Origin: an uncultured Trichococcus sp. | Lineage (GTDB): Bacteria; Bacillota; Bacilli; Lactobacillales; Aerococcaceae | Assembly (NCBI RefSeq): GCF_963667775.1 | Contig: NZ_OY764015.1 | Location: 310,001 to 374,000, forward strand | Length of the DNA: 64,000 nt | Direction of reading: 5' to 3' | Shown here: positions 17,428-61,384 of the stretch, in pieces | Position numbering within the stretch: position 1 is the first letter of the stretch | Layout of the letters: each line of letters starts with the position of its first letter | Notes under the pieces: generated by a model | What the model was told of the DNA's origin: nothing | Seen by the model: the letters and a program-made list of their open reading frames with translations, nothing else | The model's database searches: none | Translations under genes and position numbers: made by a program

Positions 17428-17559
17428 AGCTCCGGCGAAGCCGTCTTTCGTCGGAGGAGAATTTAGAATCCGCACCCAGCTCCGACGAAGCAGGCTTCGC
17501 CGGAGGAGCAGATCATGTTGTCTTCGCCAACTCCGATGAGGCAACCCTCACCGGAGTTG
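17428..17559 (+). repeat. Palindrome array, 3 units, ~50-bp period
   Basis: Units start near 17430, 17480 and 17528. Each is an imperfect palindrome of about 30 bp running from CTCCGRCGAAG to TTCGCCGGAGGAG or a close variant; the third is CAACTCCGATGAGG ... CTCACCGGAGTTG. Spacers of about 18-20 bp are unrelated. The array lies after the smpB terminator. The rest of the 435-bp gap before fbp is AT-rich with a possible TATGAT at 17667 but no good -35. Confidence 0.85.
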
Positions 17560-17777
17560 GCGCACTCTGGTTTGGACTACAGCAAGCATCGGACAGGTAC
17601 ACTGTCGAAATTGTGACCAATTGTGTAATTTTTGTATCTTGTCTATCATTTTTTTTTAATTCAAGCTATGATAGAAGTAATCATCTTGTCACGAAAAATA
17701 AAGATAATCCTGTAAGCAACGTTTGCCTTGCGGGGTTCCATTCTGAGTGAAATGAAAAAAGTAGGGGTGTAATTGTA

Positions 17778-19763
17778 ATGATAACGAAAGACAAGTATCT
17801 TCGATTGCTGGCAAAAGAATATCCGACAGCAGCAAAAACAGTAACCGAAATCATCAACTTGGAAGCCATCATGAACTTGCCGAAAGCAACCGAGCACTTC
17901 ATCAGTGACTTGCATGGGGAATACGATGCCGTGCAGCATGTACTCAGGAATGGATCCGGGAACGTCAAAGAAAAGATCCGCGAGATTTTCCAAGGGCGCC
18001 TGAGCACCCGTGAAATGAACCAGCTTGCGACAATCGTCTACTACCCGGAAGACAAAATCGACATGATTGTGGACAGCTTGGAATCCGAAGAGGAAATCAA
18101 TGAGTTTTATTCGTTGACCTTGTTGCGCATCACGGAACTTTGCGCGTTCACCGTTTCGAAATACACGCGATCGAAAGTCAGAAAGGCGATTCCGGCCGAT
18201 TATGCCTACATCATCGAGGAACTGCTTTTCAAAGACACGATCATGACGAACAAAGAGGATTATTACGAAAAGATCATCAAAACCGTCATTTCCTTGGACC
18301 GCGCCACCGAATTGATCGCTGCCATCTCGCATGTCATCCAGCGTCTGGTGGTAGATCACCTGCATGTTGTCGGGGACATCTACGACAGAGGGCCGTTCCC
18401 TGACAAAATCATCGACACCTTCATGGACGGACACGAGTTGGATATCCAATGGGGCAACCATGATGTCCTCTGGATGGGGGCCGCTAGCGGGTCGGCAGCC
18501 TGTATGGCCAATGTCATCCGTATCTGTGCCCGTTACAACAACCTTGAAATCATCGAGGATGCCTACGGGATCTCTTTGCGTCCGCTGATTACGTTTGCGG
18601 AAATGGTCTACAAGGAGGACCGCTACGAACCGTTCATGCCGAAAATCAATACCGAGGACGAAAGCAAAATCTTCCCGGAGGAAATTCGCCAGATCGCCAA
18701 AATGAACCAGGCCATTTCAATCATCCAGTTCAAACTCGAAGGTGAAATCATCAAACGCCACCCAGAATTCGACATGGCCGATCGGATGGTGCTGGACTTC
18801 ATCAATTACGAAACAGGAACGGTGAAATTGGATGGGAAAGAATATCCGATGCTGTGCGATTATTTCCCGACAGTCGATCCAGCCGATCCGTACCGCTTGA
18901 GCGAAGAGGAGATGCTGGTTGTCGAAAGGCTCTTGACCGGTTTCCTGAATTCCGAAAGACTGCAGAAACACGTCCAGTTCCTTTTCAGCAAAGGCAGCAT
19001 GTATTTGAGCTATAACGACAATCTGTTATTCCACGGCTGTGTGCCGCTGAATCCGGACGGCAGCTTCATGGAGCTGCCGATCGCGAACGTCAAGTACAGC
19101 GGCAAAGCCCTCCTGGACAAGTACGAAGAAGTGTTGCGCAGAGGCTATCTGAACCGCGAAGCAACGAAACGCAACATCCGCAGTCTCGATCTGATTTGGT
19201 ATCTGTGGGAAGGCAAAGCGTCGTCCTTGTTCGGCAAGGATAAGATGACGACTTTCGAACGCCTTTATGTTGCGGACAAAGAAACGCATATCGAGAAGAA
19301 GAACTTGTATTACGAGCAGCGCGACAACGTGGAACTGTCCTACAAAATACTGAAGGAGTTCGGCCTGGACCCAAACAAAGGCCATATCATCAACGGCCAC
19401 ACGCCTGTCAAAGAAAAAATCGGCGAGAATCCGCTGAAGGCGGACGGCAAGCTGATCGTCATCGACGGCGGCTTCTCAAAAGCCTACCAGAATACGACGG
19501 GGCTGGCCGGCTATACGCTACTGTACAACTCTTTTGGGATGCAGTTGGTTTCGCACCAACCGTTCACTTCCCGTCAGGATGCCATCGAAAACGAAAAGGA
19601 CATCGTTTCGACCCGACGCATCGTCGACAAGGAATTAGAACGCAAGACGGTAAGGCAGACAGATGTCGGCAAGAAACTGACCCAGCAAGTCATCGACCTG
19701 CAACAATTGCTGCGGGCCTACAAATCCGGCGAAATCGTGGAAGATCTGCTCAGCGACAAATAG
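17778..19763 (+). CDS. fbp: Fructose-1,6-bisphosphatase, class III (Firmicutes type)
   Basis: Hydrolyses fructose-1,6-bisphosphate to fructose-6-phosphate for gluconeogenesis. The 661 residues and the metallophosphoesterase motifs ISDLHGEYD (about residue 43), VVGDIYDRGPFPDKI (about 198) and WGNHDVLWMGA (about 225), with GHTPVKEKIGENP and VIDGGFSKAYQ later, identify the large Firmicutes FBPase (B. subtilis Fbp type), unrelated to the FBPase I fold. RBS GGGGTG lies about 9 nt before the ATG. It is transcribed alone or with the phosphatase gene 99 bp downstream. Confidence 0.97.
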   Translation: MITKDKYLRLLAKEYPTAAKTVTEIINLEAIMNLPKATEHFISDLHGEYDAVQHVLRNGSGNVKEKIREIFQGRLSTREMNQLATIVYYPEDKIDMIVDSLESEEEINEFYSLTLLRITELCAFTVSKYTRSKVRKAIPADYAYIIEELLFKDTIMTNKEDYYEKIIKTVISLDRATELIAAISHVIQRLVVDHLHVVGDIYDRGPFPDKIIDTFMDGHELDIQWGNHDVLWMGAASGSAACMANVIRICARYNNLEIIEDAYGISLRPLITFAEMVYKEDRYEPFMPKINTEDESKIFPEEIRQIAKMNQAISIIQFKLEGEIIKRHPEFDMADRMVLDFINYETGTVKLDGKEYPMLCDYFPTVDPADPYRLSEEEMLVVERLLTGFLNSERLQKHVQFLFSKGSMYLSYNDNLLFHGCVPLNPDGSFMELPIANVKYSGKALLDKYEEVLRRGYLNREATKRNIRSLDLIWYLWEGKASSLFGKDKMTTFERLYVADKETHIEKKNLYYEQRDNVELSYKILKEFGLDPNKGHIINGHTPVKEKIGENPLKADGKLIVIDGGFSKAYQNTTGLAGYTLLYNSFGMQLVSHQPFTSRQDAIENEKDIVSTRRIVDKELERKTVRQTDVGKKLTQQVIDLQQLLRAYKSGEIVEDLLSDK

Positions 19764-19862
19764 TTGTATGAAATAGATGCAATCAGCCGCCGAAATTGTT
19801 AAGATAAGGGAAGGAAAGCAAGTATCCTACTGCGAAAATAGCTTGAGAGAGGCGGGTTAACC

Positions 19863-20615
19863 TTGAAAAAGGGAGTAACGTTTTATTTTATGCGACACGG
19901 AGAAACTTATCTGAATAAATACAATCGGATGCAAGGCTGGTCCGATACCCCACTGACGCCCAGAGGCAGACGCGATGTCATGAGAAGCGGAGCGGGCTTG
20001 GGCGATGTCAAGTTCGATGCTGTCTATTGCAGCGACTTGAGACGTACATTTGAAACAGCACAGATCATTTTAAAAGAAAACCAGCATGCCGATCATCTGA
20101 AAGTGGTGGCTATGCCCGAATTCAGGGAGATATTCTTCGGTTCTTTTGAAGGGCTGGATGCGAGCGAAACCTGGGGGAACCTGAATAAATTCCTGGGAAG
20201 CCCGGATGGTGAGCCTAATTATGATGCCCACCGCTCCGTCATCGAAGAGCTGAACGGATTGAAAGACATGGATCCGTACCACGAAGCGGAAGACTACATG
20301 ACTTTCTGGCTGCGCGTCGAACGCGGTTTGATCAAACTGATCAACGAACACCGCGATTCCGAAAGAAATATCCTGATCGTTTCCCACGGGATGACGATCA
20401 GGAATATGATCCATGCGGTCATTCCTGATTTCTCGATCGACCGCCATCTGGATAATGCCAGCATATCGGTCGTCCGCTATGAGGATGGTTTCTATCATCT
20501 GGACCTCTATAATGGCACCGATCATTTTGTCGAAGACTTCACACCTGCTGATGAGCAGGAACCGGAAGTCCACAAAGTGACGCCAGCCGATAAAGTCGAA
20601 GAGGATGTCAAATAA
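19863..20615 (+). CDS. Histidine phosphatase family protein (phosphoglycerate-mutase-like)
   Basis: The start is a TTG with AGAGAGG upstream. FYFMRHGETYLNKYNRMQGWSDTPLTPRGR is the histidine-phosphatase signature, with the phospho-accepting His in RHGE, DLRRTFETA and the second His in VSHGMTIRNMIHAV. The 250-aa protein ends in an acidic tail. Members of this family dephosphorylate sugar phosphates, nucleotides or phosphoproteins, and the substrate cannot be read from sequence; it need not be a mutase, since gpmI already supplies that step. It lies downstream of fbp and ends at a terminator. Confidence 0.88.
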   Translation: MKKGVTFYFMRHGETYLNKYNRMQGWSDTPLTPRGRRDVMRSGAGLGDVKFDAVYCSDLRRTFETAQIILKENQHADHLKVVAMPEFREIFFGSFEGLDASETWGNLNKFLGSPDGEPNYDAHRSVIEELNGLKDMDPYHEAEDYMTFWLRVERGLIKLINEHRDSERNILIVSHGMTIRNMIHAVIPDFSIDRHLDNASISVVRYEDGFYHLDLYNGTDHFVEDFTPADEQEPEVHKVTPADKVEEDVK

Positions 20616-20628
20616 AACAAGAAGAGTG

Positions 20629-20662
20629 CCCTTGGAAAAAACCTTTATTTCCAAGGGTTTTT
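20629..20662 (+). terminator. Terminator after the histidine phosphatase gene
   Basis: CCCTTGGAAA pairs with TTTCCAAGGG around 9 nt, followed by TTTTTC. Confidence 0.92.
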
Positions 20663-20725
20663 CTGTGTATGCAAATCATAAACAGATGAAAATCTCATCT
20701 TTTTTTCCTTTTTGGGAAAAAATAA

Positions 20726-20754
20726 TTGTAAATTTTATCCAAATAGTCTAAAAT
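20726..20754 (+). promoter_or_regulatory. carAB promoter
   Basis: TTGTAA and TAAAAT with a 17-bp spacer, about 50 bp before the PyrR-type leader. Confidence 0.75.
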
Positions 20755-20807
20755 TAACGTAATCCACAATACTGTACGAGATACAGCGTGGCCAGAACGT
20801 CTTTAAA

Positions 20808-20893
20808 TTAGCACAGAGAGGCTAACAAGGCATGTGAAACGATTAATGTAAACAACCGTTGAAACACGCCCAATAATAGGTGTGTTTTTTTTT
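20808..20893 (+). promoter_or_regulatory. PyrR-dependent transcription attenuator of carAB
   Basis: TTAGCACAGAGAGGCTAA forms a stem-loop whose loop carries the ACAGAGAGG core of known PyrR binding loops. About 40 nt further on AAACACGCC pairs with GGTGTGTTT and runs into a long T-stretch, an intrinsic terminator. In the known pyr mechanism, PyrR with UMP binds the first loop and lets the terminator form. Placement directly before carA fits pyrimidine feedback. Confidence 0.85.
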
Positions 20894-20958
20894 ACATTTT
20901 CCTATTTTTCATGCATGTAAGGTATGTACCTTGTCAATCAGAAATCAGGAGGAAGAAC

Positions 20959-22059
20959 ATGAAACAACGTAGATTTTTAGTTTTAGAAGATGGCAGCTGC
21001 TATCCAGGATATGCTTTCGGATCAGAAAAAGATGCAATCGGGGAGATCGTATTCAACACAGGGATGACTGGTTACCAAGAAACTTTGTCCGATCCTTCCT
21101 ACACAGGCCAAATCATCACTTTCACTTATCCGTTGATCGGCAACTACGGCATCAACGAAGATGACTTTGAAGGGGTACATCCGGGCTTGAAAGGGATGGT
21201 CGTGCATGAATTGGCGGAACATCCGAGCAATTTCCGTTGCACCAAAACGTTGGATGTAGCTTTGAAGGAATTTGATGTACCAGGAATCTACGGCGTGGAT
21301 ACACGCAGCATCACCAAAAAAATCCGCAATGCCGGCGTTATGCGCGGCACGATGGTAAAAAATGCGGACAACTTGGATGAGATTGTCGCATCGTTGAAAG
21401 CCTACGAATTACCGGTTGACGAAATCCAAATGAATTCGATAAAAGAAATCAAAAAATATGCGGGTGAAGGTCCACGCGTTGTCTTGCTTGACTTCGGCTT
21501 CAAGGACAACATCCTTGCAGAATTATTGAAAAGAGGCTGCGAAGTCATTCTGGCTCCTTGGAACACAAGCGCAGAAGAAATCTTGGCCTACAAACCGGAT
21601 GGCATCATGTTGAGCAACGGACCTGGAGATCCGACATCCGTTCCGGAAGCCATCGAGACGATCAAGCAATTGATTGCGCAGGAAAATCTGCCGATTTTTG
21701 GAATTTGCCTAGGACACCAATTGATCTCATTGGCGAGCGGCGCGACAACCTACAAAATGAAATTTGGCCACCGCGGAGCAAATCATCCGGTGAAGGATCT
21801 CGAAACCGGCAAAATCAGCCTGACGAGCCAAAACCATGGCTATGCCGTGGATGAGGAAAGCCTGGGCCAGACAGACTTGATCGCAACCCATCGTGCTCTG
21901 AATGACGGCACGAACGAAGGCGTAAAACATAAAACCAAACCGGTCTTCTCGGTTCAATACCATCCGGAAGCGGCACCCGGACCACACGATGCCAATTATT
22001 TGTTCGATCATTTTGTAGATATGATGAAAGCAGTCCAAGGAGGAAAACAACATGCCTAA
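20959..22059 (+). CDS. carA: Carbamoyl-phosphate synthase small subunit
   Basis: The glutaminase subunit hydrolyses glutamine and channels ammonia to CarB. The N-terminal CPSase domain ([25 protein letters not shown]) is followed by a class I amidotransferase domain with Cys in [15 protein letters not shown] and His/Glu in [13 protein letters not shown]. Start at 20959 is set by AGGAGGA 7 nt upstream; a longer frame would start inside the attenuator region. 366 aa. It overlaps carB by 8 bp, so subunits are coupled. Confidence 0.98.
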
Positions 22060-25000
22060 ACGTACCGACATTCAATCCATCTTAGTGATCGGCTCAGGCC
22101 CCATCATCATCGGCCAAGCCGCTGAATTTGACTATGCCGGAACGCAAGCATGCTTGGCGTTAAAAGAAGAAGGATACAAAGTCATTTTGGTCAACTCCAA
22201 CCCTGCTACAATCATGACGGACGTTGAAATTGCCGATAAAGTCTATATGGAGCCACTTTCTGTGGAATTCATCACGAACATCATCCGCAAAGAGCGCCCG
22301 GATGCCTTATTGCCGACATTGGGCGGCCAGACCGGTCTGAACATGGCCGTGGAACTGGATAAAGCAGGCGTATTGGAAGAATTCAATGTCGAGTTGTTGG
22401 GAACTAAATTGAGTTCCATCCAACAGGCCGAAGACCGTGATCTGTTCCGCCAACTGATGGCGGAATTGAATCAGCCGGTCCCGGAGAGCGACATCGTCCA
22501 CACAGTGGCGGAAGCTTTAAGCTTCGCCGCGGAAATCGGTTATCCGTTGATCGTCCGTCCAGCCTTCACGATGGGCGGAACCGGCGGCGGCATCTGCCAT
22601 AATGAAGCCGACCTGCGCGAAATCGTAGCCAACGGCTTGCGCTACTCACCGGTGACGCAATGTCTCCTGGAAAAATCGATCGCCGGCTTCAAGGAAATCG
22701 AATACGAAGTGATGCGCGACAGCAACGACAACGCCATCGTGGTCTGCAACATGGAAAACATCGATCCGGTCGGCGTCCACACAGGCGATTCCGTCGTCGT
22801 GGCGCCTTCCCAAACGTTGTCCGACAAAGAATACCAAATGCTGCGCGATGTTTCCCTGCAGATCATCCGCGCCCTGAAAATCGAAGGCGGCTGCAATGTG
22901 CAGTTGGCATTGGATCCGTACTCGTTCGACTACTACATCATCGAAGTGAACCCGCGCGTCAGCCGTTCTTCGGCCTTGGCGAGTAAAGCGACCGGCTACC
23001 CGATCGCGAAGATGGCGGCGAAGATCGCTGTCGGCTTGACTCTGGATGAAATGAAGAACCCGGTCACCGGCACTTCCTATGCGGCTTTCGAGCCGGCTTT
23101 GGATTACATCGTCTCCAAAATCCCGCGTTTCCCGTTCGATAAATTCGAAAAGGGCGACCGTACCCTCGGCACGCAGATGAAAGCGACAGGCGAAGTCATG
23201 GCCATGGGCCATACGTTCGAGGAATCGATGCTGAAAGCTGTCCGTTCGCTGGAATACGGCGTCAACCATCTGGCCTTGCCGAAAGACCAAGGCCAGACCG
23301 TGACGATGGCAGAAATCGAACAGAATATCCGTGTCGCCTGCGACGAGCGTCTGTTCTATCTCGGCGAAGCGTTGCGCCGTGGCGTGACACCGGAAACGAT
23401 CCACGAATGGAGCGAAATCGACTACTTCTTCCTGCACAAATTCAAGCACATCATCGATCTTGAAAAAGAAGTGGCTGCCAATGTGAAGGATCTGGAAACG
23501 TTGCGCGAAGCGAAGAAATACGGCTTCAGCGACGAAATCATCGCGGAATTGTGGGGTATGGCTTCGGAAGACATCTACGCGTTGCGCAAAGCCAACGGCA
23601 TCGTGCCTGTCTTCAAAATGGTGGATACGTGCGCGGGCGAATTCGAATCCTTCACACCGTACTTCTACAGCACGTATGAAATGGAACAGGAATCGTTCCC
23701 GAGCGACCGCGAAAAAGTCATCGTCCTAGGCTCCGGTCCGATCCGTATCGGCCAAGGGGTCGAGTTCGACTACGCGACCGTGCATGCGGTCTGGGCGATC
23801 CAGGAAGCCGGCTACGAAGCGATCGTCGTCAACAACAACCCGGAAACCGTTTCGACGGACTTCTCGATCTCCGACAAGCTGTATTTCGAACCATTGACTG
23901 AAGAAGACGTGATGGCCATCATCGACCTGGAACAACCGCTTGGCGTCGTGGTGCAGTTCGGTGGCCAAACGGCCATCAACCTGGCCGACAAATTGGTCAA
24001 GCACGGCGTCAAGATCCTGGGCACGAGCCTGGAAGATCTTGACCGCGCCGAAGACCGCAAACTGTTCGAACAGTTGTTGCGCGATTTGGATATCCCGCAG
24101 GCACCCGGCAAGACAGCCGTGACCGTTGAGGAAGCGGTCGCCGTTGCGGATGAAATCGGTTATCCGGTCTTGGTGCGTCCGTCCTACGTATTGGGCGGAC
24201 GGGCGATGCAGATCGTCTACAACCAAGCCGACCTGGAGAAATACATGCGCGAAGCGGTCGTGGCCAGCCCCGAACGGCCGGTCCTGGTCGATCATTACCT
24301 GATCGGACAAGAACTGGAAGTCGATGCGATCTGCGACGGCGAAACCGTCCTGATCCCGGGCATCATGGAACATATCGAACGCGCCGGCGTCCACTCGGGC
24401 GACTCGATCGCTGTTTACCCGCCGCAAAACCTGTCGGCTGAACTGATCAAAACGATCGAAGACTACACGATCCGCGTGGCGCAAGGGCTGAACACGATCG
24501 GTTTGGTGAACATCCAGTTCGTCATCAGCAATGGCGTCGTCTACATCATCGAAGTGAATCCGCGCGCGAGCCGGACGATCCCGTTCCTGAGCAAGGTAAC
24601 CGGCATCCCGATGGCGAAGTTGGCCACAAAAGGGATCTTAGGACTGAACTTGAAGGATATGGGTTACAAGACAGGTCTGGTTCCGTCAAAATCAGGCGTA
24701 TACGTGAAGATGCCGGTCTTCAGTTTCAGCAAACTGAAGAAAGTCGATACCGTATTGGGGCCGGAAATGAAGTCTACCGGAGAGATCATCGGAAAAGATG
24801 TCAACTTGCCGAAAGCTTTGTATAAAGGCTTTATCGCATCCGGCGTGAATGTACCTGATTACGGTACAGCGTTGATGACGGTATCGGATAAAGACAAAGA
24901 AGAAATCATTCCGTTGGCGAAACGTTTGATTTCGTTAGGCTACCATATCGTTGCCACAACTGGTACCGGTAAAGCTTTGGAAGCACAAGGAATCAAAGTT

Positions 25001-25240: not shown

Positions 25241-25254
25241 GCTGTAAAGCAGAA

Positions 25255-33320: not shown

Positions 33321-34408
33321 ATGACCAAAAATAATTGTATCACAGAAAAGCGCACCTTCAAACAACTTACTGACATCCAACGCGGAATGCTGGAACAGAT
33401 GGCGAAAAGCGGCACCTATAAACAAGCTGAAATGGCGCGAGAATTAGGGGTCAGCCAACCCACTGTTTCTCGTGAGTTGAAACGCGGTAGAACGCGCCAG
33501 CTTGACTATAAGCGCAATTATTACGAGCAGTATATTGCCGCCTCAGGCGCACGGATTTATAAAGAAAATCGTGAGAACTCGCATGCGCGGGATCATAATA
33601 AATATTCTGCGGCTTTCCTTGCTGCCTTACCTGAAAATCTAGCACCCAAGAAGGGGTTGCGGATTCATAGTGTGGATACTTTTGTACACTCTTATAGAAA
33701 GTTGCACCCTGACGAACGCGTACCATGCACGAAGACCGTTTACGCTTTGATAAATGCTGCCGTACTTCCAATCCGTAATATCGATTTGCCTATGAAGACT
33801 AGGATGCGGCCACGAAAAACAACCGTTTCTGAACCTAAAGGTCATAACGCTAAACACTTGGGACGCAGTATCGAAGAACGCTCTCCAGAAGTACTCTCGA
33901 GGGAAGAATTTGGGCATTGGGAAGTTGATTTAGTATTAGGTAAGAAAACAAAAAATGAGCCTGTCATCATCACTATGGTTGAACGGAAAACACGCTACTG
34001 CCTCACTAAGAAAGTTTGGGGAAAAGGCGCAGCGCTGGTTCAAAAAGGCGTGCTTGACTTGATGAAAAAACAGGGGCTAGAACAGTTCAAGTCACTCACA
34101 ACTGATAACGGCTCTGAGTTTTCAAGTCTGTCTCTTATCGAAAGCATCGCTGAAGACGTTCAGGTTTTTTTTACTCATGCGTATGCTTCTTGGGAGAAAG
34201 GAACGAACGAAAGGCATAACCGCATGCTCCGAGAATTTATCCCAAAGGGAGTCACTCTGCGTCCATTGTCCTATTCGTATTTACTGGAAGTAACCGATAC
34301 GATCAACCACAGACCAAGAAAAATAATGGGCTATACAACACCTGCAGAACGCCTTCAGGAAGAACTGGCCGATTTACAAGCAGCTTAAGGTGTTTTGTTG
34401 GTTCTATA
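33285..34408 (+). mobile_element. IS30 family insertion sequence (ends approximate)
   Basis: One transposase gene with candidate terminal inverted repeats: left TTAGCAACCAAACCAAAA, right (inverse complement) TATAGAACCAACAAAACA, which share TAG-AACCAA-C-AAA. I could not confirm a target duplication. The element lies between the 66-aa gene and a cold-shock gene and interrupts no recognisable gene. Confidence 0.6.
33321..34388 (+). CDS. IS30 family transposase
   Basis: The N-terminal HTH (FKQLTDIQRGMLEQMAKSG, YKQAEMARELGVSQPTVSRELKRG) is typical of IS30, and the catalytic DDE domain follows: GHWEVDLVLGKK (first Asp), LTTDNGSEFSSL (second Asp) and YASWEKGTNERHNRMLREFIPKG (Glu). 355 aa, a full-length intact frame, so the element may be active. 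Base composition is similar to that of the surroundings. Confidence 0.97.
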   Translation: MTKNNCITEKRTFKQLTDIQRGMLEQMAKSGTYKQAEMARELGVSQPTVSRELKRGRTRQLDYKRNYYEQYIAASGARIYKENRENSHARDHNKYSAAFLAALPENLAPKKGLRIHSVDTFVHSYRKLHPDERVPCTKTVYALINAAVLPIRNIDLPMKTRMRPRKTTVSEPKGHNAKHLGRSIEERSPEVLSREEFGHWEVDLVLGKKTKNEPVIITMVERKTRYCLTKKVWGKGAALVQKGVLDLMKKQGLEQFKSLTTDNGSEFSSLSLIESIAEDVQVFFTHAYASWEKGTNERHNRMLREFIPKGVTLRPLSYSYLLEVTDTINHRPRKIMGYTTPAERLQEELADLQAA

Positions 34409-34701: not shown

Positions 34702-34812
34702 GACTTTAACATTTTGTGAAGCGCAGAAAAGAATTGTTTCAAAACATTCCGATTCGTAACGTTAGCAACAATGTATCATAAAGTGCAAAACGCACGAGGA
34801 GGATTTTCAATT
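34702..34812 (+). promoter_or_regulatory. Long cold-shock 5' leader, copy 1
   Basis: The leader shares blocks with the leader of the second copy: TTTAACATTTTGT near the 5' end, ATTCCGAT, GTAGCAACAATGTAT-type sequence and the identical CACGAGGAGGATTTTCAATT before the ATG. Conserved long leaders of csp mRNAs control stability and translation at low temperature; a structural switch is inferred. Confidence 0.6.
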
Positions 34813-35013
34813 ATGGAACAAGGTACAGTAAAATGGTTTAACGCAGAAAAAGGTTTTGGTTTCATCGAACGCGAAAACGGAGACGATGTATTCGTACATT
34901 TCTCAGCTATCCAATCTGAAGGTTTCAAATCTTTAGAAGAAGGCCAAGCAGTAACTTTCAGCGTAGAAGAAGGTAACCGTGGACCTCAAGCAACTAACGT
35001 TGTTAAAGCTTAA
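34813..35013 (+). CDS. Cold-shock protein (CspA family), copy 1
   Basis: A 66-aa single cold-shock domain with RNP1 KGFGFIER and RNP2 DVFVHFSAI, which binds single-stranded RNA/DNA as an RNA chaperone. The ATG at 34813 follows AGGAGG by 9 nt and gives the standard [14 protein letters not shown] start. The second copy, 1.7 kb downstream, differs at only four or five residues (for example E13D, N20S and the end VVKA/VNKA). The gene is flanked by its own promoter and terminator. Confidence 0.97.
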
Positions 35014-35030
35014 TTCAAATTAAACTTTTA

Positions 35031-35062
35031 GGAACCTGATCTTTGGATCAGGTTCTTTTTTT
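35031..35062 (+). terminator. Terminator of cold-shock gene 1
   Basis: GAACCTGATC pairs perfectly with GATCAGGTTC around TTTG and is followed by seven T. Confidence 0.95.
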
Positions 35063-36439: not shown

Positions 36440-36552
36440 GAATTTAACATTTTGTTGGGTTAGAGAAACGAATTGCATTACGAAAATTCCGATCCGTAGC
36501 GTTAGCAACAATGTATGATATATGTGCAATAGCACGAGGAGGATTTTCAATT
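36440..36552 (+). promoter_or_regulatory. Long cold-shock 5' leader, copy 2
   Basis: 113 nt with the same ordered blocks as copy 1 but diverged between them, consistent with a conserved RNA structure rather than a very recent duplication of the whole segment. Confidence 0.6.
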
Positions 36553-36753
36553 ATGGAACAAGGTACAGTAAAATGGTTTAACGCAGACAAAGGTTTTGGC
36601 TTCATCGAACGCGAAAGCGGAGACGATGTATTCGTACATTTCTCAGCTATCCAATCTGAAGGTTTCAAATCTTTAGAAGAAGGCCAAGCAGTAACTTTCA
36701 GCGTAGAAGAAGGTAACCGTGGACCTCAAGCAACAAACGTAAACAAAGCTTAA
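36553..36753 (+). CDS. Cold-shock protein (CspA family), copy 2
   Basis: 66 aa, nearly identical to copy 1, with the same RNP motifs KGFGFIER and DVFVHFSAI and the same AGGAGG ribosome binding site. Nucleotide identity to copy 1 is very high through the coding region and drops in the leader, which suggests gene conversion or strong constraint on the coding part. Confidence 0.97.
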
Positions 36754-36771
36754 TTCAAAATTAAACTTATA

Positions 36772-36803
36772 GGAACCTGGTCTTCGGATCAGGTTCTTTT
36801 TTT
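36772..36803 (+). terminator. Terminator of cold-shock gene 2
   Basis: GAACCTGGTC pairs with GATCAGGTTC (one G-U) and is followed by seven T; matches the terminator of copy 1. Confidence 0.95.
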
Positions 36804-36850: not shown

Positions 36851-36980
36851 GCTCCGGTTGGGGAGCTTTCGCCGGAGTAAAAATAAAAATCGCGCAACTT
36901 TTCTCCGGTTAAGCTGCGTTGAGCGGAGATCCGCACTCATTCAATCGAATGTCCTCCGGTGAAAGACTTCTTCGCCGAAG
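36851..36980 (+). repeat. Palindrome array, 3 units, ~50-bp period
   Basis: Units start near 36851, 36901 and 36953. They run GCTCCGGTTGGGG ... TTCGCCGGAG, TTCTCCGGTTAAG ... GAGCGGAGA and CCTCCGGTGAAAG ... TTCGCCGAAG. Spacers are AT-rich and unrelated. Lies between convergent csp and the SAP-domain gene. Confidence 0.8.
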
Positions 36981-42969: not shown

Positions 42970-42995
42970 GAAGATAACGAGATAATTATGGGAAG

Positions 42996-43037
42996 AGAAG
43001 TGCGCGCTGGCTAATTGTCGGTGCGTGCTTCTTTTTT
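42996..43037 (+). terminator. scfB terminator
   Basis: AGAAGTGCGCGC pairs with GTGCGTGCTTCT and is followed by TTTTT. Confidence 0.82.
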
Positions 43038-43069: not shown

Positions 43070-43201
43070 CTCCTCCGGTGAAGGAGGCTTTGGCCGGAGG
43101 ACAATTCAAAATACCGCCCCCAACTCCTGGGAAGCCGGCCTAACCGGAGGAACACTCGAAATATCAGCCGGACCTCCGGCGAGACCGGCTCTCGCCGGAG
43201 C
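43070..43201 (+). repeat. Palindrome array, 3 units, ~50-bp period
   Basis: Units start near 43071, 43121 and 43172: CTCCTCCGGTGAAGG ... TTGGCCGGAGGA, CAACTCCTGGGAAGCC ... TAACCGGAGGA and CTCCGGCGAGACC ... CTCGCCGGAG. A low-complexity AAAAAGCAAAA stretch follows. It fills most of the 361-bp gap between scfB and the convergent aminotransferase. Confidence 0.85.
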
Positions 43202-43290
43202 AAAAAGCAAAAAAGCAAAAATGTAAAAAGCAAAAATAAAAAAAGCAAAAATGCGGGCCGGATCCCCGGCCGAAAAGCCAACAGAATAAA

Positions 43291-44822: not shown

Positions 44823-44848
44823 TAGAAAAATGAATGAATCGCCAAGCA

Positions 44849-45043
44849 AAAAGAGGTCGCGGCTGGTCAAGAGTACCGCAAGGGAAAGGGACGGTCGCCG
44901 AAGCATGCAGATGCTGGACCCAGGTTGAACAAATGTGGGGCTGTTCCATTGTCGTTGCCCGATGACAGTGGATTGCGCTTTAGCTTGGTTGGGCGAATGC
45001 AGGTCTCCGTAGCCGTAAGCACTCGCTTACCGCTATTTTTTTT
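44849..45043 (+). promoter_or_regulatory. Lysine riboswitch (L-box) with terminator
   Basis: The conserved aptamer core appears in order: AAGAGGTCGC, GGTCAAGAGTACCGC, AAGGGAAAGGGACGGT, CGCCGAAGC, GCTGGACCC and later paired arms. Downstream TAGCCGTAAG pairs with CTTACCGCTA (one mismatch) and runs into nine T (45010-45043), the expression platform. Lysine binding should cause premature termination and shut off DAP/lysine synthesis. Confidence 0.9.
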
Positions 45044-45146
45044 GCGTTTCAGGAACGAACGGACGTCCACCGCATAGGGCAAATACAGGCTAGCATGCTA
45101 TAATGGGCATGTTGGAACAGAAAAAATGATCAGGAGGAAACATCAA

Positions 45147-45882: not shown

Positions 45883-47034
45883 GTGAACAGCATGCAGATT
45901 GCAGAATTATACGATACGGTGAAAATGATCCGAAGGGAGCTCCACCAGATTCCGGAGATTGGCTTCGATCTGCCGCTGACTTCTGAATACGTACGCCAGA
46001 AGCTGGTGTCGTTCGGTTATGAACCGATCAGCACCGCCGAAACGGGCTGGGTAGCCGTCCTGGAGGGCAAGTCCCCGACAGCGGTCGCCTTCCGCGCCGA
46101 TATGGATGCGCTGGAGGTTACCGAGGAAACCGGAGCGGATTTCGCTTCCATTCACCCGGGCAAAATGCACGCGTGCGGACACGATGGGCACATGGCCTTG
46201 CTGCTGGGTTTCGCGAAATATTTGAAGTCTTTGCCGATTTTGGAGAAATCTGTCGTGCTGGTTTTCCAACCGGCTGAAGAAGGCCCAGGCGGCGCGAAGT
46301 GGATCATGGATTCCGGCATCCTGCAGGAACTGCAGGTCGAAAAAATCTACGGATTCCACTTGTATCCGAGTCTGCCGGAAGGGATTCTTGGTTTGGCCAA
46401 GGGACCTTTGATGGCGCGCAACGGCGAATTCGATATCACGCTTGAGGGCGTCAGCTCGCATGCCGGGCAGCCGCATTTCGGCAAGGATGCCTTGATTGCC
46501 GCCGCGCAGATCCTGCTGTCGGTCCAGAACATTCTGGCCCGCGACCTCGATCCGTTGCAGCCGGCGGTCGTGAACATCGGCACGCTCCATGCCGGGGAAG
46601 CCCGCAATATCGTGGCCGGAAAAGCCGAGCTGACCGGGACAATCCGGAGCTACGACAAGGCGGTCTATGCTTCAATCAAGGAACACCTTGCCGACATCTG
46701 CGCCGGCATCGAGCGGTTGAGCGGTGTCATCTGCAGGTTGGATATCCGCGATTTCTATCCGGAAGTCACGAACGATGCGGAAATGATCGGCACCTTGATG
46801 GACGCTCTTCCGGCCGATGCCTACGAAGTCGTCAAACCACTGATGCTGGCCGAGGACTTTGCTTTCTACCAGGAAAGCATCCGCGGCGCCTTTATCCTGC
46901 TCGGTACCGGACGTCCCGACATGGGCTGGACGCATCCGCTCCACAGCAGTCGCTTCAACTTCGACGAGAAGGTGCTGCTGAAAGGGATCGCATGCTACGA
47001 CCTGATCCTGGAAAGGGAAGGGCTGAAGCGCTAA
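45883..47034 (+). CDS. N-acetyldiaminopimelate deacetylase (M20 family)
   Basis: Removes the acetyl group from N-acetyl-L,L-DAP to give L,L-DAP. M20 metallopeptidase motifs are present: FRADMDALEVTEETG, the metal ligands in MHACGHDGHMALLLG and Glu-Glu in FQPAEEGPGGAKW, with the dimerisation domain from about residue 175 (GVSSHAGQPHFGKDALIAA). I use the GTG at 45883 because GGAGGG sits 5-6 nt upstream; an ATG 9 bp later would be at 14 nt. 383 aa. Functional specificity follows from the position 22 bp after dapH; the general family also includes hippurate and other amidohydrolases. Confidence 0.93.
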   Translation: MNSMQIAELYDTVKMIRRELHQIPEIGFDLPLTSEYVRQKLVSFGYEPISTAETGWVAVLEGKSPTAVAFRADMDALEVTEETGADFASIHPGKMHACGHDGHMALLLGFAKYLKSLPILEKSVVLVFQPAEEGPGGAKWIMDSGILQELQVEKIYGFHLYPSLPEGILGLAKGPLMARNGEFDITLEGVSSHAGQPHFGKDALIAAAQILLSVQNILARDLDPLQPAVVNIGTLHAGEARNIVAGKAELTGTIRSYDKAVYASIKEHLADICAGIERLSGVICRLDIRDFYPEVTNDAEMIGTLMDALPADAYEVVKPLMLAEDFAFYQESIRGAFILLGTGRPDMGWTHPLHSSRFNFDEKVLLKGIACYDLILEREGLKR

Positions 47035-47056
47035 AAGAATCAGAATGATTATACAG

Positions 47057-47088
47057 AAAGGCACTCTTAACGGGGTGCCTTTTGGTTT
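47057..47088 (+). terminator. dap operon terminator
   Basis: AAAGGCACTC pairs with GGGGTGCCTTT, followed by TGGTTTGG; the T-run is short. Confidence 0.78.
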
Positions 47089-47109: not shown

Positions 47110-47292
47110 CCTCCGGTGAGGGGTGCTTCGCCGGAGGACAGGACCGCATTCAGACGCGCTCCTCCGACAAGCAGAAGCCTCCTCGGAGAAGTGCTCGGCT
47201 ATTACCGGTCAGCTCCGGCGAACGAAGCCTCGCCGGAGCAGCAGGTCATCATGCAACGCCGTCCTACGATGAAGGCGTTCTTCGCCGGAGTT
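47110..47292 (+). repeat. Palindrome array, 4 units, ~50-bp period
   Basis: Units start near 47110, 47161, 47211 and 47260, including CCTCCGGTGAGGG ... CTTCGCCGGAGGAC and GCTCCGGCGAACG ... CTCGCCGGAGCAG. The last is degenerate on the left (TCCTACGATGAAGG ... CTTCGCCGGAG). It occupies the gap between the dap operon and the small lipoprotein gene; the remaining bases to 47450 are AT-rich and contain TACAAT at 47414. Confidence 0.85.
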
Positions 47293-50906: not shown

Positions 50907-50918
50907 ACTAGATAGATG

Positions 50919-50968
50919 GAAAAGCAGCTCTCCCAAAGCTTTAGTGCTGAGGGATGGCTGTTTTTTTG
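50919..50968 (+). terminator. ilvE terminator
   Basis: AAAGCAGCTCTCCC pairs imperfectly with GGGATGGCTGTTTT; seven T follow. Confidence 0.8.
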
Positions 50969-50976: not shown

Positions 50977-51556
50977 TTCCGGAGGGGAGGTCGTCAGCTC
51001 CGGCGAGGGTGCGCTGGCCGGAGAACAGCATGCGCGCGGGCGACCAACTCCGGCGAGCGAATGTTGGCCGGAGGAGAGGCATTATCCGGGTGTCGGACTC
51101 CGGCGAAGCCGAGCCAATCGGAGGTGACATTTTACCGGGATCCCCAGCTCCGGCGAGGACCGCCTTCGCCGGCGGAAAACGCTAGCGCCGGTGAACGGGT
51201 CGTTCCTCGGAGAACAGCATGCGCGCGGGCGACCAACTCCGGCGAGCGAATGTTGGCCGGAGGAGAGGCGTTATCCGGGGACCGAACTCCGGCGAAGCCG
51301 AGCCAACCGGAGGTGACATTTTACCGGGATCCCCAGCTCCGGCGAGGACCGCCTTCGCCGGCGGAAAACGCTAGCGCCGGTGAACGGGTCGTTCCTCGTA
51401 GAACAGCATGCGCGCGGGCGACCAACTCCGGCGAGCGAATGTTGGCCGGAGGAGAGGCGTTATCCGGGGACCGAACTCCGGCGAAGCCGAGCCAGCCGGA
51501 GGTGACATTTTACCGGGATCTTCATCTCCGGCGAGGACCGCCTTCGCCGGAACAGG
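50977..51556 (+). repeat. Long palindrome array with 189-bp higher-order tandem repeat
   Basis: Three near-identical blocks of 189 bp begin at about 51021, 51210 and 51399 (the last incomplete). Each block carries four CTCCGGCGA-type palindromes, for example AACTCCGGCGAGCG ... TTGGCCGGAGGAG, GACTCCGGCGAAGCC ... and AGCTCCGGCGAGG ... CCTTCGCCGGCGG, spaced 40-52 bp. About 13 units in all. An open frame runs through the array, but its product is an Arg/Pro/Ala-rich repeat without a proper start and I do not consider it a gene. The rest of the 748-bp gap up to 51654 contains only AT-rich promoter-like sequence. Confidence 0.92.
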
Positions 51557-54345: not shown

Positions 54346-54363
54346 GCGAAGGAGGAAAACAAC

Positions 54364-54720
54364 ATGACTGAAAACACAGTGAAATACAGCGAGAACGGCT
54401 TCTGGATCAAGAAGGAAGCGGACAAGTACATCATCGGCCTATCCGAAAAAGGCCATGACGACCTGGGCGAAGTCAGCTTCATCGACCTGCCGGAAACGGG
54501 AGCGATCAAAACGACCGACACCCTGATCGGCGTGGAAGCCGCCAAAGCGATGACCGACTTGACTTCTCCATTGAACGGCACAATTACAGCCATCAACGAA
54601 GCGCTGGAAAACAATCCGGAGAACCTGAACAGCACCGATGCAACAGTGAACTGGATCTTCGAACTGACGGACGTATCCGCTGAGGCTTTCGAAGCTCTGC
54701 AGAACGAATCCGGACTGTAA
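54364..54720 (+). CDS. GcvH-like lipoyl-carrier protein
   Basis: 118 aa of the glycine cleavage H-protein fold: YIIGLSEKGHDDLGEVSFIDLPETG, then the lipoyl-lysine hairpin with Lys61 in GVEAAKAMTDLTSPLNGTI, and NPENLNSTDATVNWIFEL. In organisms without a full glycine cleavage system, GcvH-like proteins act as intermediates in lipoate transfer to the 2-oxoacid dehydrogenases. No gcvT or gcvP is in this window. The GAAGGAGG is 8-9 nt upstream. Ends with a strong terminator. Confidence 0.9.
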   Translation: MTENTVKYSENGFWIKKEADKYIIGLSEKGHDDLGEVSFIDLPETGAIKTTDTLIGVEAAKAMTDLTSPLNGTITAINEALENNPENLNSTDATVNWIFELTDVSAEAFEALQNESGL

Positions 54721-54736
54721 AAGAATGTGGAAAGAT

Positions 54737-54785
54737 AAAAAGGCAAGCATGCGGACATCGTGTCCGAGTGCTTGCCTTTTTGATT
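54737..54785 (+). terminator. Terminator after the GcvH-like gene
   Basis: AAAAGGCAAGCAT-GCGGACA pairs with TGTCCGA-GTGCTTGCCTTTT (small bulge), then a T-run. Confidence 0.93.
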
Positions 54786-54794
54786 TTTAATTGT

Positions 54795-54975
54795 GCCCCG
54801 GCGAAAGCCGGGTCGGCCGGAGGAGCCGGCCAGGAACTATTCTTTCCTCCGGTGAGAGGGATTTAGCCGGAGAAAAACTGATTATCCTGTTCTTTCCTCC
54901 GGCGAACGTTTCCTCACCGGAGGACGCGAAACTATTCCGTCACCAACTCCGTCCGCCGCCTCCTCACCGGAGTTG
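54795..54975 (+). repeat. Palindrome array, 4 units, ~50-bp period
   Basis: Units start near 54796, 54846, 54896 and 54943. They include CCTCCGGTGAGAGG ... TTAGCCGGAGA and CCTCCGGCGAACG ... CTCACCGGAGGA; the last is flanked by CAACTCCG ... CGGAGTTG like one unit after smpB. Two of the spacers share ACTATTCTTTCC / CTGTTCTTTCC-like sequence. Lies between two convergent genes. Confidence 0.88.
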
Positions 54976-54990
54976 GCGACCGCTAAATGC

Positions 54991-55716
54991 CTAGCACATC
55001 GCCCGCGCCACCAGATCCTCAAAGAACAGACGCATGTTTTTGGCTTCCGGTATCATCGTCTCCGGGTGCCATTGGATGGCAAGGATGCTTTGTTCCGGAT
55101 CCGTCGCTTCGACGGCTTCAACAAGGCCGTCGGGGCTGTATCCGACCGGCTGCAAGCCCTTAGCGACGACCTTCAAGGCTTGATGGTGGAAGGAATTCAC
55201 CGACAGCTTTTCGCCGACGAGGGCGTGGAGGTGGCTGCCTTCCGTAACGATGACGGAGTGGGTCGCAAATTTGAAGTCGGTCTTCTGTTGATGCTGGATG
55301 CGCATTTCCGGATAATCATGCGCAAGGTCCTGATACAGGCTCCCGCCCATCTGGACGTTCAAAATCTGCAAGCCGCGGCAGACGGCCAGGATCGGTTTCT
55401 TCTGTTTCAGGGCTTCTGCTACGAGCGCCATTTCGAAGTCGTCGCGCAAAGGGAAGGTCGCGCCGATATGCAGGCTCGGTTCCTCGCCGTAAAAGTTCGG
55501 GGAAACATCCTGTCCACCCGTCAACAACAGCCCGTCGATTTTGGCGACGTAGTCGGCTGCCGTTTCGGGGGCGCCAATCGGAATGATCAACGGATTGCCT
55601 CCTGCGGCCTGGACCCCTTTCACGAATCCGATGGGGGTGTAGGCGACGGAAATCCCTGAGAAAGCAGGGACAGCTTCCAGTAATTGGTTGCCGGTGATAC
55701 CGATCAATGGTCTCAT
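54991..55716 (-). CDS. Gamma-glutamyl-gamma-aminobutyrate hydrolase family protein (class I amidotransferase fold)
   Basis: 241 aa of the peptidase C26 family. DGLLLTGGQDVSPNFYGEEP, the nucleophile Cys113 in ILAVCRGLQILNVQMGG and the His-Glu of AIQWHPE give the complete triad. PuuD-type members hydrolyse gamma-glutamyl-GABA in putrescine degradation; others cleave further gamma-glutamyl compounds, so the substrate is open. On the minus strand, with AAGGAAGA just before the ATG, standing alone between gcvH-like and suf. Confidence 0.93.
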   Translation of the reverse strand: MRPLIGITGNQLLEAVPAFSGISVAYTPIGFVKGVQAAGGNPLIIPIGAPETAADYVAKIDGLLLTGGQDVSPNFYGEEPSLHIGATFPLRDDFEMALVAEALKQKKPILAVCRGLQILNVQMGGSLYQDLAHDYPEMRIQHQQKTDFKFATHSVIVTEGSHLHALVGEKLSVNSFHHQALKVVAKGLQPVGYSPDGLVEAVEATDPEQSILAIQWHPETMIPEAKNMRLFFEDLVARAMC

Positions 55717-55883
55717 ATATGTTGTCTTCCTTTCGTTATTGACTGATTTTTATCATTTTACCGCATAATTGAGAATATGGGAAAGAATCGTTCTTATAAG
55801 TGGACAAAACTGGCCGATAGTTTATAATGATTATAAATTGAAAAAAATTATCGTTGATTAATGGGGTTTTCATAATGATTCCA

Positions 55884-55912
55884 TTGCGAAAGGTTTTCAA
55901 TTGGGTTAAAAT
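55884..55912 (+). promoter_or_regulatory. suf operon promoter
   Basis: TTGCGA and TAAAAT with a 17-bp spacer, 60 bp before sufC. No iron- or redox-responsive operator is recognisable to me. Confidence 0.7.
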
Positions 55913-55971
55913 AGTCGTAGTGTCAATAATGAAGGTTCGATTAAAATATATAGATTGTGAGGAGTTAATTT

Positions 55972-56745
55972 ATGTCTACTTTAGAAATAATAGATCTGCA
56001 TGTCTCCATTGAGGATAAACAAATTTTGAAGGGTGTAAACCTGGTGATGAACACCGGTGAAATCCATGCCATCATGGGGCCAAACGGTACAGGTAAATCG
56101 ACTCTGTCACAAGCAATCATGGGTCACCCGAGCTACACGATCACGCAAGGCCAAGTTCTCTTGGACGGCCAAGATGTGACCGAAATGGAAGTCGACGAAC
56201 GCGCACGCGCAGGCCTATTCCTGGCGATGCAATATCCGAGCGAAATCGCCGGCATCACAAACGCTGAATTCATGCGCGCGGCCATCAATGCCCGCCGCCC
56301 GGAAGACGACAAAATTTCGGTCATGAACTTCATCAAAAAGTTGGACGAAAAAATGGAAATCCTGAACATGCCTGAAGAAATGGCTGAACGCTATTTGAAC
56401 GAAGGCTTCTCAGGCGGAGAAAAGAAACGCAACGAAATCCTGCAATTGATGATGATCGAACCGAAATTCGCGATCCTTGACGAAATCGACTCCGGTTTGG
56501 ATATCGATGCTTTGAAAGTCGTTTCCAAAGGCGTGAACCTGATGTCCGGTCCTGACTTTGGCGTCCTGATCATCACCCATTACCAACGTCTCTTGAATTA
56601 TGTACACCCTACATTCGTCCATGTCATGATGGACGGCCGCATCGTGAAATCCGGTGACGCCAGCTTGGCGAAACGTCTGGAAGCGGAAGGCTACCGCGGC
56701 ATCCGCGACGAATTAGGTCTAGATATCCATTTGGATGAAGAATAG
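55972..56745 (+). CDS. sufC: Fe-S cluster assembly ATPase SufC
   Basis: ABC-type ATPase that powers the SufBCD scaffold. Walker A GPNGTGKST (about residue 36), signature FSGGEKKRNEI, Walker B FAILDEIDSGLDIDAL and the switch His in IITHYQRLL. 257 aa, normal. First gene of sufCDSUB, 11 bp before sufD. Confidence 0.98.
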   Translation: MSTLEIIDLHVSIEDKQILKGVNLVMNTGEIHAIMGPNGTGKSTLSQAIMGHPSYTITQGQVLLDGQDVTEMEVDERARAGLFLAMQYPSEIAGITNAEFMRAAINARRPEDDKISVMNFIKKLDEKMEILNMPEEMAERYLNEGFSGGEKKRNEILQLMMIEPKFAILDEIDSGLDIDALKVVSKGVNLMSGPDFGVLIITHYQRLLNYVHPTFVHVMMDGRIVKSGDASLAKRLEAEGYRGIRDELGLDIHLDEE

Positions 56746-56756
56746 GAGGACGTCAC

Positions 56757-59749
<2,993 letters not shown>

Positions 59750-59753
<4 letters not shown>

Positions 59754-61144
59754 GTGAAGTACCTGTAGTTGACGATTATAAATTTGGCTTTCATGACGAC
59801 GCAAAAATCATCTATTCCACCGGTAAAGGACTGACGGAAGAAATCGTCAGGGAAGTATCCGCATCCAAGGATGAACCGCAATGGATGCTGGATTTCCGTC
59901 TGAAATCATTGGAAGCATACAGAAAAGCAGGATTGCCGAATTGGGGTCCGGATCTATCCACCCTGAAATTCGATGACATCACCTATTTCCAGAAGGCCAC
60001 CGATAAAGTCGCCCGCACTTGGGATGACGTGCCTGACGAAATCAAGGAAACCTTCGAAAAAATCGGGATCCCTGAAGCCGAGCGCGCTTATCTGGCCGGC
60101 GTAACGGTCCAGTACGAGTCGGAAGCCGTCTACCACAACATGAAGGATGAGTTCGAGAAACTGGGCATCATCTTTACCGATACGGATACAGCCCTGAAGG
60201 AATATCCGGAAATTTTCAAGGAACACTTCGCCACTGTTGTACCGCCGACGGACAACTTTGAGGCTGCCTTGAATTCGGCCGTTTGGTCAGGTGGCACCTT
60301 CATCTATGTGCCAAAAGGCGTCAAATGCGATGTACCGTTGCAGACTTACTTCCGTATCAACAATGAAGGCTCCGGCCAATTCGAGCGCACGCTGATCGTC
60401 GTCGACGAAGGCGCCAGCGTCCACTATGTCGAAGGCTGTACAGCGCCGACTTATTCGGCTGATAGCCTGCATGCCGCAGTCGTTGAAATCGTTGTGAAAA
60501 AGGATGCCTACTGCCGTTACACGACCATCCAAAACTGGTCCGACAATGTCTACAACTTGGTGACGAAACGTGCTGTAGCCTTGGAAAACGCGACAATGGA
60601 ATGGATCGACGGCAATCTGGGTGCCAAAGTGACGATGAAATATCCGAGCGTCATCCTGAACGGACGCGGCGCCAAAGGTACGATGCTTTCCGTAGCTTTC
60701 GCCGGCAAAGGCCAGCAGCAGGATACCGGTGCAAAAATGATCCACAACGCACCGCACACGTCCAGCTCGATCGTCTCCAAGTCGATCGCGAAGGACGGCG
60801 GGGCAGTGAACTACCGCGGACAAGTGAAGTTCGGCAAGAAATCGGAAGGATCGATTTCGCATATCGAATGCGACACGATCATCATGGACGACATCTCCAC
60901 TTCCGACACGATCCCGTTCAACGAAATCCACAACGGCAAAGTTTCCCTGGAGCACGAAGCGAAAGTTTCCAAAATCTCCGAAGAGCAACTGTACTACCTG
61001 ATGAGCCGTGGCCTCAGCGAGTCCCAAGCGACCGAAATGATCGTCATGGGCTTCGTCGAGCCATTCACCAAAGAACTTCCGATGGAGTATGCAGTCGAGT
61101 TGAATAGACTGATTGCTTATGAGATGGAAGGGTCAGTGGGATAA
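59750..61144 (+). CDS. sufB: Fe-S cluster assembly protein SufB
   Basis: Scaffold on which the cluster is built. Motifs [56 protein letters not shown] and the conserved [19 protein letters not shown], with [21 protein letters not shown] at the C-terminus. 464 aa, normal. Last gene of the operon. Confidence 0.98.
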
Positions 61145-61153
61145 TACACTAAT

Positions 61154-61200
61154 AAAGAACCGTAAGCGTTGATTTTACTGACGTTTTCGGTTCTTTTTTG
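61154..61200 (+). terminator. suf operon terminator
   Basis: AAAGAACCG pairs with CGGTTCTTT, with partial inner AGCGT/ACGTT pairing, then six T. Confidence 0.88.
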
Positions 61201-61248
61201 CGCTTTCCGGTAAAGTTGGGTTTGGCCATGAAATTTGCAAAGCTGGCC

Positions 61249-61384
61249 TTAACTCCGGCCAAGGACTGATCAGCCGGAGGGCAACACCGAAAATGTGTCT
61301 TCATCTTCGATGAAGAACGCTTCGCCGGAGGAAACAACTGTAGATGGGCTCTTAGCTCCTGGGAAGGCTCCCTTCACCGGAGAA
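61249..61384 (+). repeat. Palindrome array, 3 units, ~50-bp period
   Basis: Units start near 61251, 61302 and 61354: AACTCCGGCCAAGG ... TCAGCCGGAGG, TCTTCGATGAAGAACG ... TTCGCCGGAGGA and GCTCCTGGGAAGG ... TTCACCGGAGA. A weaker CTTTCCGGTAAAG at 61202 may be a decayed fourth unit. After the suf terminator. Confidence 0.82.

Follow-up and report, generated by a model that had tools for sequence, protein, structure and literature searches.

The window examined here is a stretch of 64,000 nucleotides from an uncultured Trichococcus sp. (positions 310,001 to 374,000 of contig NZ_OY764015.1, assembly GCF_963667775.1), whose genome is a single contig of 3,315,642 bp. It carries seven arrays of an imperfect palindrome, which a first-pass annotation of the same DNA had reported at seven intergenic sites with three or more copies each. 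The palindrome, CTCCGG-N14/15-CCGGAG or a near copy of it, is present at all seven, in 3, 3, 3, 4, 12, 4 and 3 units in order of position (32 in total), and the observation is thus confirmed as real and, if anything, as understated. The arrays and the intrinsic terminators that precede them are listed below, with z for the folding of each terminator.

17361..17402, plus strand: intrinsic terminator upstream of the 17430 triad (fold, z -5.65)
17430..17556: triad, units at 17430, 17480 and 17531, between smpB and a fructose-1,6-bisphosphatase gene
36771..36798, plus strand: intrinsic terminator upstream of the 36852 triad (fold, z -4.68; also found by the pattern scan)
36852..36980: triad, units at 36852, 36903 and 36954
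42991..43037, plus strand: intrinsic terminator upstream of the 43073 triad (fold, z -5.28)
43073..43200: triad, units at 43073, 43124 and 43174, between convergent genes
47056..47083, plus strand: intrinsic terminator upstream of the 47111 array (fold, z -4.20)
47111..47290: four-unit array, units at 47111, 47162, 47213 and 47264
50917..50968, plus strand: intrinsic terminator upstream of the 50998 array (fold, z -4.10)
50998..51552: twelve-unit array of four-unit modules (steps 50-51, 50 and 50) with 38-bp joins and a 189-bp period
54736..54782, plus strand: intrinsic terminator upstream of the 54796 array (fold, z -6.97)
54796..54972: four-unit array, units at 54796, 54847, 54897 and 54947, between convergent genes
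61154..61196, plus strand: intrinsic terminator upstream of the 61253 triad (fold, z -3.96)
61253..61382: triad, units at 61253, 61305 and 61356, after a sufB-like gene

Architecture and copy number of the arrays

The start-to-start spacing within the window is nearly constant, as had been claimed, although the measured steps are 50-52 bp rather than 47-52 bp and two 38-bp steps occur in the twelve-unit array. Apart from the copied modules of that array, the units differ inside each array, and a direct-repeat search recovers them at just three of the seven sites (47111, 50998 and 54796) because they have diverged. The near-identical repeats of clustered regularly interspaced short palindromic repeats (CRISPR) are therefore not what the window holds, the copied modules again excepted, as the first-pass annotation had argued. 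In a comparative study, cas genes are reported in five Trichococcus genomes (PMC6950789). A protein-coding repeat, for which the left-arm codons could read Ser-Gly-Glu, was rejected since a period of 50-51 bp shifts the frame.

When each gap between stop codon and array is folded, all seven arrays begin about 14 to 57 bases past a hairpin that folds as a strong terminator and carries a U-run (z between -4.0 and -7.0), which bears out the earlier placement of the arrays behind terminators; a simple terminator pattern scan lists one of the seven (36771). The companion statement that arrays never lie inside genes holds in the window under codon-scored gene calls, where only mechanical open reading frames of up to 226 aa overlap some arrays, but not strictly beyond it, as in 420 kb of the genome a crude gene caller places genes across 5 of 57 clusters.

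These 420 kb, the window together with 20 stretches around pattern hits, served to train a symmetric arm profile, which at a score of 11 finds 375 units there as against 11 in the reversed sequence and 10 in a Markov shuffle. Exact arms number 158 in the whole genome and 3 for the reversed pattern, and such sparse control matches exclude chance as the source of the units. Centre-to-centre distances between neighbours, rounded with half-integers going to the even number (so that 50 includes 49.5 and 50.5), are 50 (206 cases), 51 (23), 52 (29) and 38 (40), with a few of 68 and 78. Spacing near 50 bp thus predominates: among the 313 such distances shorter than 130 bp, 258 round to 50-52 bp.

In a larger sample of 1,158 kb (35% of the genome), made of stretches picked partly for pattern hits and partly, in 20 cases, from a hit-free zone, there are 103 clusters, and 58 of them have exactly three units. 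The others comprise 6 of four units, 4 of two, 23 of one (many near noise level) and 12 with 9 to 34 units. Relatives give a similar picture, with three units in 52 of 79 clusters and four in 9, in 471 kb of partly overlapping stretches picked around pattern hits and orthologous loci. Since three units dominate these counts, the element is best described as a triad of about 127 bp. Large arrays are built mostly of four-unit modules (steps of 51, 50, 50 and then 38; 189-190 bp) or of modules in which three units are followed by a 68- or 78-bp step.

Half-sites, spacing and the test for a hairpin

In 35 orthologous pairs, identity to the window is 0.904 at the outer six arm positions, 0.784 at the next four, 0.701 in the loop and 0.704 in the middle of the spacer, with 0.84-0.86 in flanks that include terminators and gene ends. 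The arm cores are thus held while spacers and loops drift. What does not drift is length. Over 35 of 42 orthologous pairs, substitutions per column are 0.212 in arrays and 0.162 in the intergenic DNA beside them, whereas indel events number 78 in 5,093 array columns as against 230 in 5,912 flanking columns, so that indels per substitution (0.072 vs 0.241) are 3.3 times rarer inside arrays. This comparison took pairs with equal unit numbers, the four-unit 47111 array being counted as equal to the three units of its relatives, and it supports the earlier suggestion of selection on spacing.

A templated spread mechanism had been offered as the other explanation of constant phase. The orthologous spacer is the best match among 303 own spacers in 39 of 61 comparisons, and mean identity with the orthologue is 0.66, as compared with 0.63 for the closest of all other spacers in either orientation and 0.36 for random pairs. 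Spacer divergence therefore looks mostly vertical, and templated spread would not be the main process at the spacers compared, although the remaining 22 comparisons leave room for it as possible exchange between loci.

If the palindrome were kept as a stem, its two arms should change together, and at positions 6-9 they do not. These positions hold 440 Watson-Crick pairs as against 436.3 expected when arms are reshuffled (z 0.35; 194 units), in a test for which an excess of 13 pairs at position 6, or 13% of the possible range, would equal two standard deviations. Among 195 distinct units of relatives there is likewise no significant pairing excess at any of positions 6-9. Mismatches are also balanced between G-T and A-C, at 90 vs 110 on the plus strand (135 units), 54 vs 63 when read in the direction of tandem genes (78 units) and 145 vs 130 in relatives, which indicates that neither strand is favoured as RNA. 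In the half-site logo, position -2 is A or T in 99% of cases, in about equal shares and with no pairing excess, as is seen where a protein contacts the minor groove. Recognition of double-stranded DNA fits these patterns better than RNA or a cruciform does; independent arms, balanced mismatches, the identity of the arm cores (90% vs 70%) and rare indels all favour a DNA-protein reading.

We lean towards reading the arrays as platforms on which three protein dimers dock where transcription units end. Among the three roles first offered, a protein-binding scaffold therefore fits best, and a read-through barrier is a possible one. From the anatomy of the units, the conservation of half-sites and spacing, the nearly independent arms, the lack of strand asymmetry and the position behind terminators in the window, we infer protein binding, a dimeric state and a function as follows. 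Each unit would be a dyad of two inverted half-sites, roughly W-N-CTCCGG-Y-G-A-R and about 13-16 bp each, recognised on double-stranded DNA by a dimeric protein. Three dyads with centres about 50.5 bp apart would then place three dimers in fixed geometry on about 127 bp. Bound downstream of terminators, the complex would most likely mark or insulate the ends of transcription units, either as a roadblock to read-through or as a supercoil boundary, and it perhaps helps to organise the chromosome.

Several observations weigh against this reading. No protein that binds the arrays was found. A stricter terminator script places a terminator at just 18 of 47 array sides, and a position behind terminators could also arise because these places tolerate insertions. 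Seven of the 42 pairs, which differ in unit number, did not enter the indel test, and orthologous pairs share ancestry, so that the nominal p of this test (3e-20) should not be taken as a true probability. Position 5 covaries modestly, with 142 pairs against 129.6 expected (p 0.004) and, in relatives, 145 against 136.1 (p 0.02), whereas position 10 has fewer pairs than expected in both sets of units. The outer positions 0-4 hardly vary and so allow no pairing test, which leaves space for a short hairpin. Six window arrays, two of them incomplete, were folded with single-stranded DNA parameters and with flanks removed; five come out more stable than their shuffles at z below -2 and four of these at z below -3, although the predicted topologies differ and none is common to all. 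Finally, arrays have been lost or never gained in some species, so no single array seems essential.

Distribution in the genus and along the chromosome

The two-unit pattern occurs in 13 of 13 Trichococcus genomes and in none of 63 other genomes of the family, and within that family the arrays are restricted to the genus. A broader contig scan returned at least 119 stretches; among the 80 stretches listed, those with multiple matches are all Trichococcus or the mislabelled SX930, and single pattern matches in GC-rich genomes are read as chance. Viral contigs hold 87 stretches with the pattern, and 78 of the 80 stretches listed have a single match; plasmid and phage collections gave no match to one 378-base array stretch. 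The genome MUZD01 (G068), labelled Sedimentibacter sp. SX930, itself appears to be Trichococcus (L015, L074, L096, L117, L159), given the same arrays, its genus placement in the genome set and 97% DNA identity to the window over an ftsW/rodA-like gene.

Most of the arrays compared hold their position across species. The triad at smpB (17430) is found in 8 of 10 relatives, with a remnant in T. ilyis and nothing in G065. At 36852 one of two relatives compared has three units and the other two, while three units stand at 43073 in 8 of 8 relatives and at 47111 in 8 of 8, there with an irregular 64-bp step in one. The 54796 array has 3-4 units in 8 of 10 relatives and none in two, and the 61253 array three units in four of five and two in the fifth. 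The twelve-unit array at 50998 is the most variable, with 12, 12, 8, 8, 3, 3, 1, 1 and 0 units across nine relatives. Two sites that had seemed empty, one in T. alkaliphilus and one in T. pasteurii, were discarded, as alignment shows array sequence there.

All arrays had been said to read in the same orientation, but the unit is nearly symmetric, and a polarity assigned to whole triads from their sequence alone, with an arbitrary overall sign, is plus in 27 and minus in 31 of 58 triads. Of 43 confident triads, 31 point the same way as the replication fork and 12 the opposite way (p 0.005), and the polarity follows the genes in 19 of 28 confident triads in tandem gaps (p 0.09); the two biases are confounded, and shared orientation amounts at most to a weak bias. 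As to gene context, the 57 of 58 triads with both flanking genes called lie in 36 tandem, 19 convergent and 2 divergent gaps, compared with 89 tandem, 24 convergent and 29 divergent among the 142 intergenic gaps that measure 150 bp or more within the first 420 kb, two different crude gene callers having been used for the triads and for the comparison.

Along the chromosome, dnaA lies at 2.399 Mb and a dif-like site at 715,751, at the GC-skew flip, where 25 of 28 positions match what we take to be the B. subtilis dif. At least 82 array loci were gathered from fetched stretches and partial pattern lists, a collection that is incomplete beyond 1.65 Mb. Among them the largest array-free gap measures 866,708 bp (between 479 and 1,346 kb), a size whose odds under uniform placement are about 2e-9, or about 0.0015 after clusters within 30 kb are merged. 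Twenty samples of the gap (400 kb) contain no array and 6 isolated weak units. One of these units, at about 771 kb, is accompanied 51 bp away by an even weaker one and could be what is left of a decayed array. Genus genomes share a 16-kb part of the gap in 13 of 13 cases, so that this part does not look like a recently acquired island, and at the matching loci 12 relatives have no array and one weak unit. However, the zone is lopsided, its two edges lying 236 kb and 630 kb away from dif, and in G069 an array at 216.7 kb lies near the skew flip at about 160-200 kb. It is thus a depleted zone rather than a clean exclusion from the terminus.

A wider proposal would have these triple-dyad elements, placed where transcription units end, belong to a genus-specific chromosome organiser, in which an undescribed protein occupies them as three phased dimers and a large zone beside the terminus is kept free. 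We offer this tentatively and would not call it likely. If true, such a system perhaps performs tasks for which other bacteria use Noc-type or other nucleoid proteins.

At 1.470-1.575 Mb (L137-L140), super-arrays of 9 to 34 units stand between many genes in 189-190 bp modules whose sequence differs from locus to locus. An integron-like arrangement of cassettes was rejected there, as 17 of 20 neighbouring proteins have Pfam matches, to ordinary families (metabolic, regulatory and signalling) and, in one case, to a primase-helicase. The last of these, a 969-aa protein encoded between arrays (L137:15351-18260, minus strand), has AEP-TOTE primase and helicase domains, which Pfam assigns to a TOTE conflict system. 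Also set aside were two candidates for unknown proteins that lie between super-arrays (L139:5142-6215 and 7472-8029), since by eye they look like antisense frames.

A few further features were seen. Directly 3' of the 43073 triad, an A-rich 15-bp tandem repeat (AGCAAAAA...) occupies 43199-43253 and is shorter or missing in eight aligned relatives. Two cspA thermoregulator hits in the same direction (34710-35060 and 36446-36801, starts 1.7 kb apart) both lie within 7 bits above the gathering score; the 36852 triad follows the second, and an IS30-like transposase (33321-34388; rve, with HTH_38 just below the cut-off) lies upstream of these elements. A lysine riboswitch at 44843-44988 stands upstream of an open reading frame at 45126 and an M20 peptidase gene at 45883. 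In L187:2001-18000, a 185-bp stretch (query positions 15801-15985) has matches of 76-80% elsewhere in the genome and in six relatives.

Comparison with known systems

The repeat is not described in the open-licence literature searched, a scope outside which most subscription-journal papers fall, and the words 'repeat', 'palindrom' and 'intergenic' are absent from the main text of the comparative genomics paper on Trichococcus (PMC6950789). The closest known relatives in form are repetitive extragenic palindromes (REPs) and the bacterial interspersed mosaic elements (BIMEs) that contain them. Like the arrays, these are short, high-copy extragenic palindromes found after genes and between convergent genes, according to PMC3733652. 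The first-pass annotation had held strict periodicity to set the arrays apart from REPs, which was overstated: BIMEs also contain regularly spaced REPs, sometimes in clusters, according to PMC2817692, and regularly spaced palindromes after genes are just what the arrays are.

A REP/BIME-like element, or a miniature inverted-repeat transposable element (MITE), would have been spread by a transposase and be mostly immobile today, its regular spacing a by-product of cluster multiplication. High copy number and the extragenic position after genes are consistent with such an origin, as are the 189-bp modules that vary in number between species and the Y1 transposase domains (Y1_Tnp) in 12 of 13 genus genomes, which could be of the REP-associated tyrosine transposase (RAYT) or the IS200 type. 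However, no Y1 domain matches in T. ilyis (G063, 98% complete), a genome that is nonetheless rich in arrays (65 + 45 two-unit matches). The unit ends show no GTAG or CGTC tag, the logo outside the arms reading B-B-W-N, and the arms are independent at most testable positions, positions 6-9 among them, while orthologous arm cores are better conserved than spacers. In addition, an excess of G-T pairs, read as a sign of transcribed repeats in PMC3733652, is not seen, and the fixed geometry of the triad differs from REPs and BIMEs. The arrays are thus BIME-like in form but fail two tested defining features of REPs, the tag and the base-paired stem. We consider a REP- or MITE-like origin unlikely, though it deserves to be taken seriously.

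EFAR, RUP and BOX are MITE-like repeats of low-GC Gram-positive bacteria and resemble the arrays as dispersed intergenic repeats of related bacteria. EFAR and RUP are named as MITEs in PMC3733652. In the arrays, by contrast, we saw no terminal repeats or clear target duplication, and a conserved dyad alternates with drifting spacers of fixed length. The array-free sites compared (G065 at smpB, G063 and G065 at 54796) show no clear duplication, these few sites being too diverged to exclude one.

An RNA element, transcribed as 3' hairpins that would make mRNA more stable or bring about termination or attenuation, would suit the location after genes, and the arms can pair, as the five of six arrays that outfold their shuffles (with DNA parameters) illustrate. 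Yet strong terminator hairpins precede all seven arrays of the window, G-T pairs are not consistently commoner than A-C, the arms are independent at positions 6-9 and the predicted folds have no common topology. No array anywhere in the window matches a family of Rfam 15 at the gathering score, and a search of one array region at relaxed settings yielded three hits, all far below it. The structured 3' RNA first suggested therefore fits poorly, and we regard it as quite improbable.

Noc- and SlmA-binding sites are, to our knowledge, single sites and not triads. They are chromosome-wide specific protein sites largely absent around the terminus, according to PMC5540599. The arrays share with them the wide spread and a large array-free zone that contains the dif-like site and of which a 16-kb sample occurs in 13 of 13 genus genomes. 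By analogy, the arrays could be nucleoid-occlusion or segregation sites kept away from the terminus, but the lopsided depletion, the G069 array near its skew flip and the lack of clear enrichment towards the origin among the loci gathered argue otherwise. A second, Noc-like ParB-family protein was not found either: 12 of 13 genomes have exactly one ParB_N match, which may be of any ParB type, and the thirteenth (G064, 63% complete) has none. This analogy is accordingly very unlikely to hold.

The res site of Tn3-family transposons has three subsites for resolvase dimers on about 120 bp. Binding sites of a recombinase or transposase complex, with three 26-27 bp dyads at fixed spacing and modules that amplify and contract, would be the least probable account of the arrays, since the likeness is one of geometry only and at least 82 dispersed loci, several kept in place across species, would be unstable if actively recombining, with no recombinase among the 20 proteins scanned around the super-arrays.

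Palindromes scattered through a genome are commonly interpreted as hairpins or as selfish repeats, whereas the sequence of these arrays argues for the docking of proteins at the DNA level, in a fixed geometry of three sites that a whole genus conserves where ordinary genes end. The tests that separate hairpin from dyad here (arm independence, the G-T/A-C balance and indels per substitution) are applicable to other repeat families. If the binding protein is found, the arrays would offer a clean system in which to study proteins at gene ends, be it in blocking read-through, holding supercoils or organising the chromosome.

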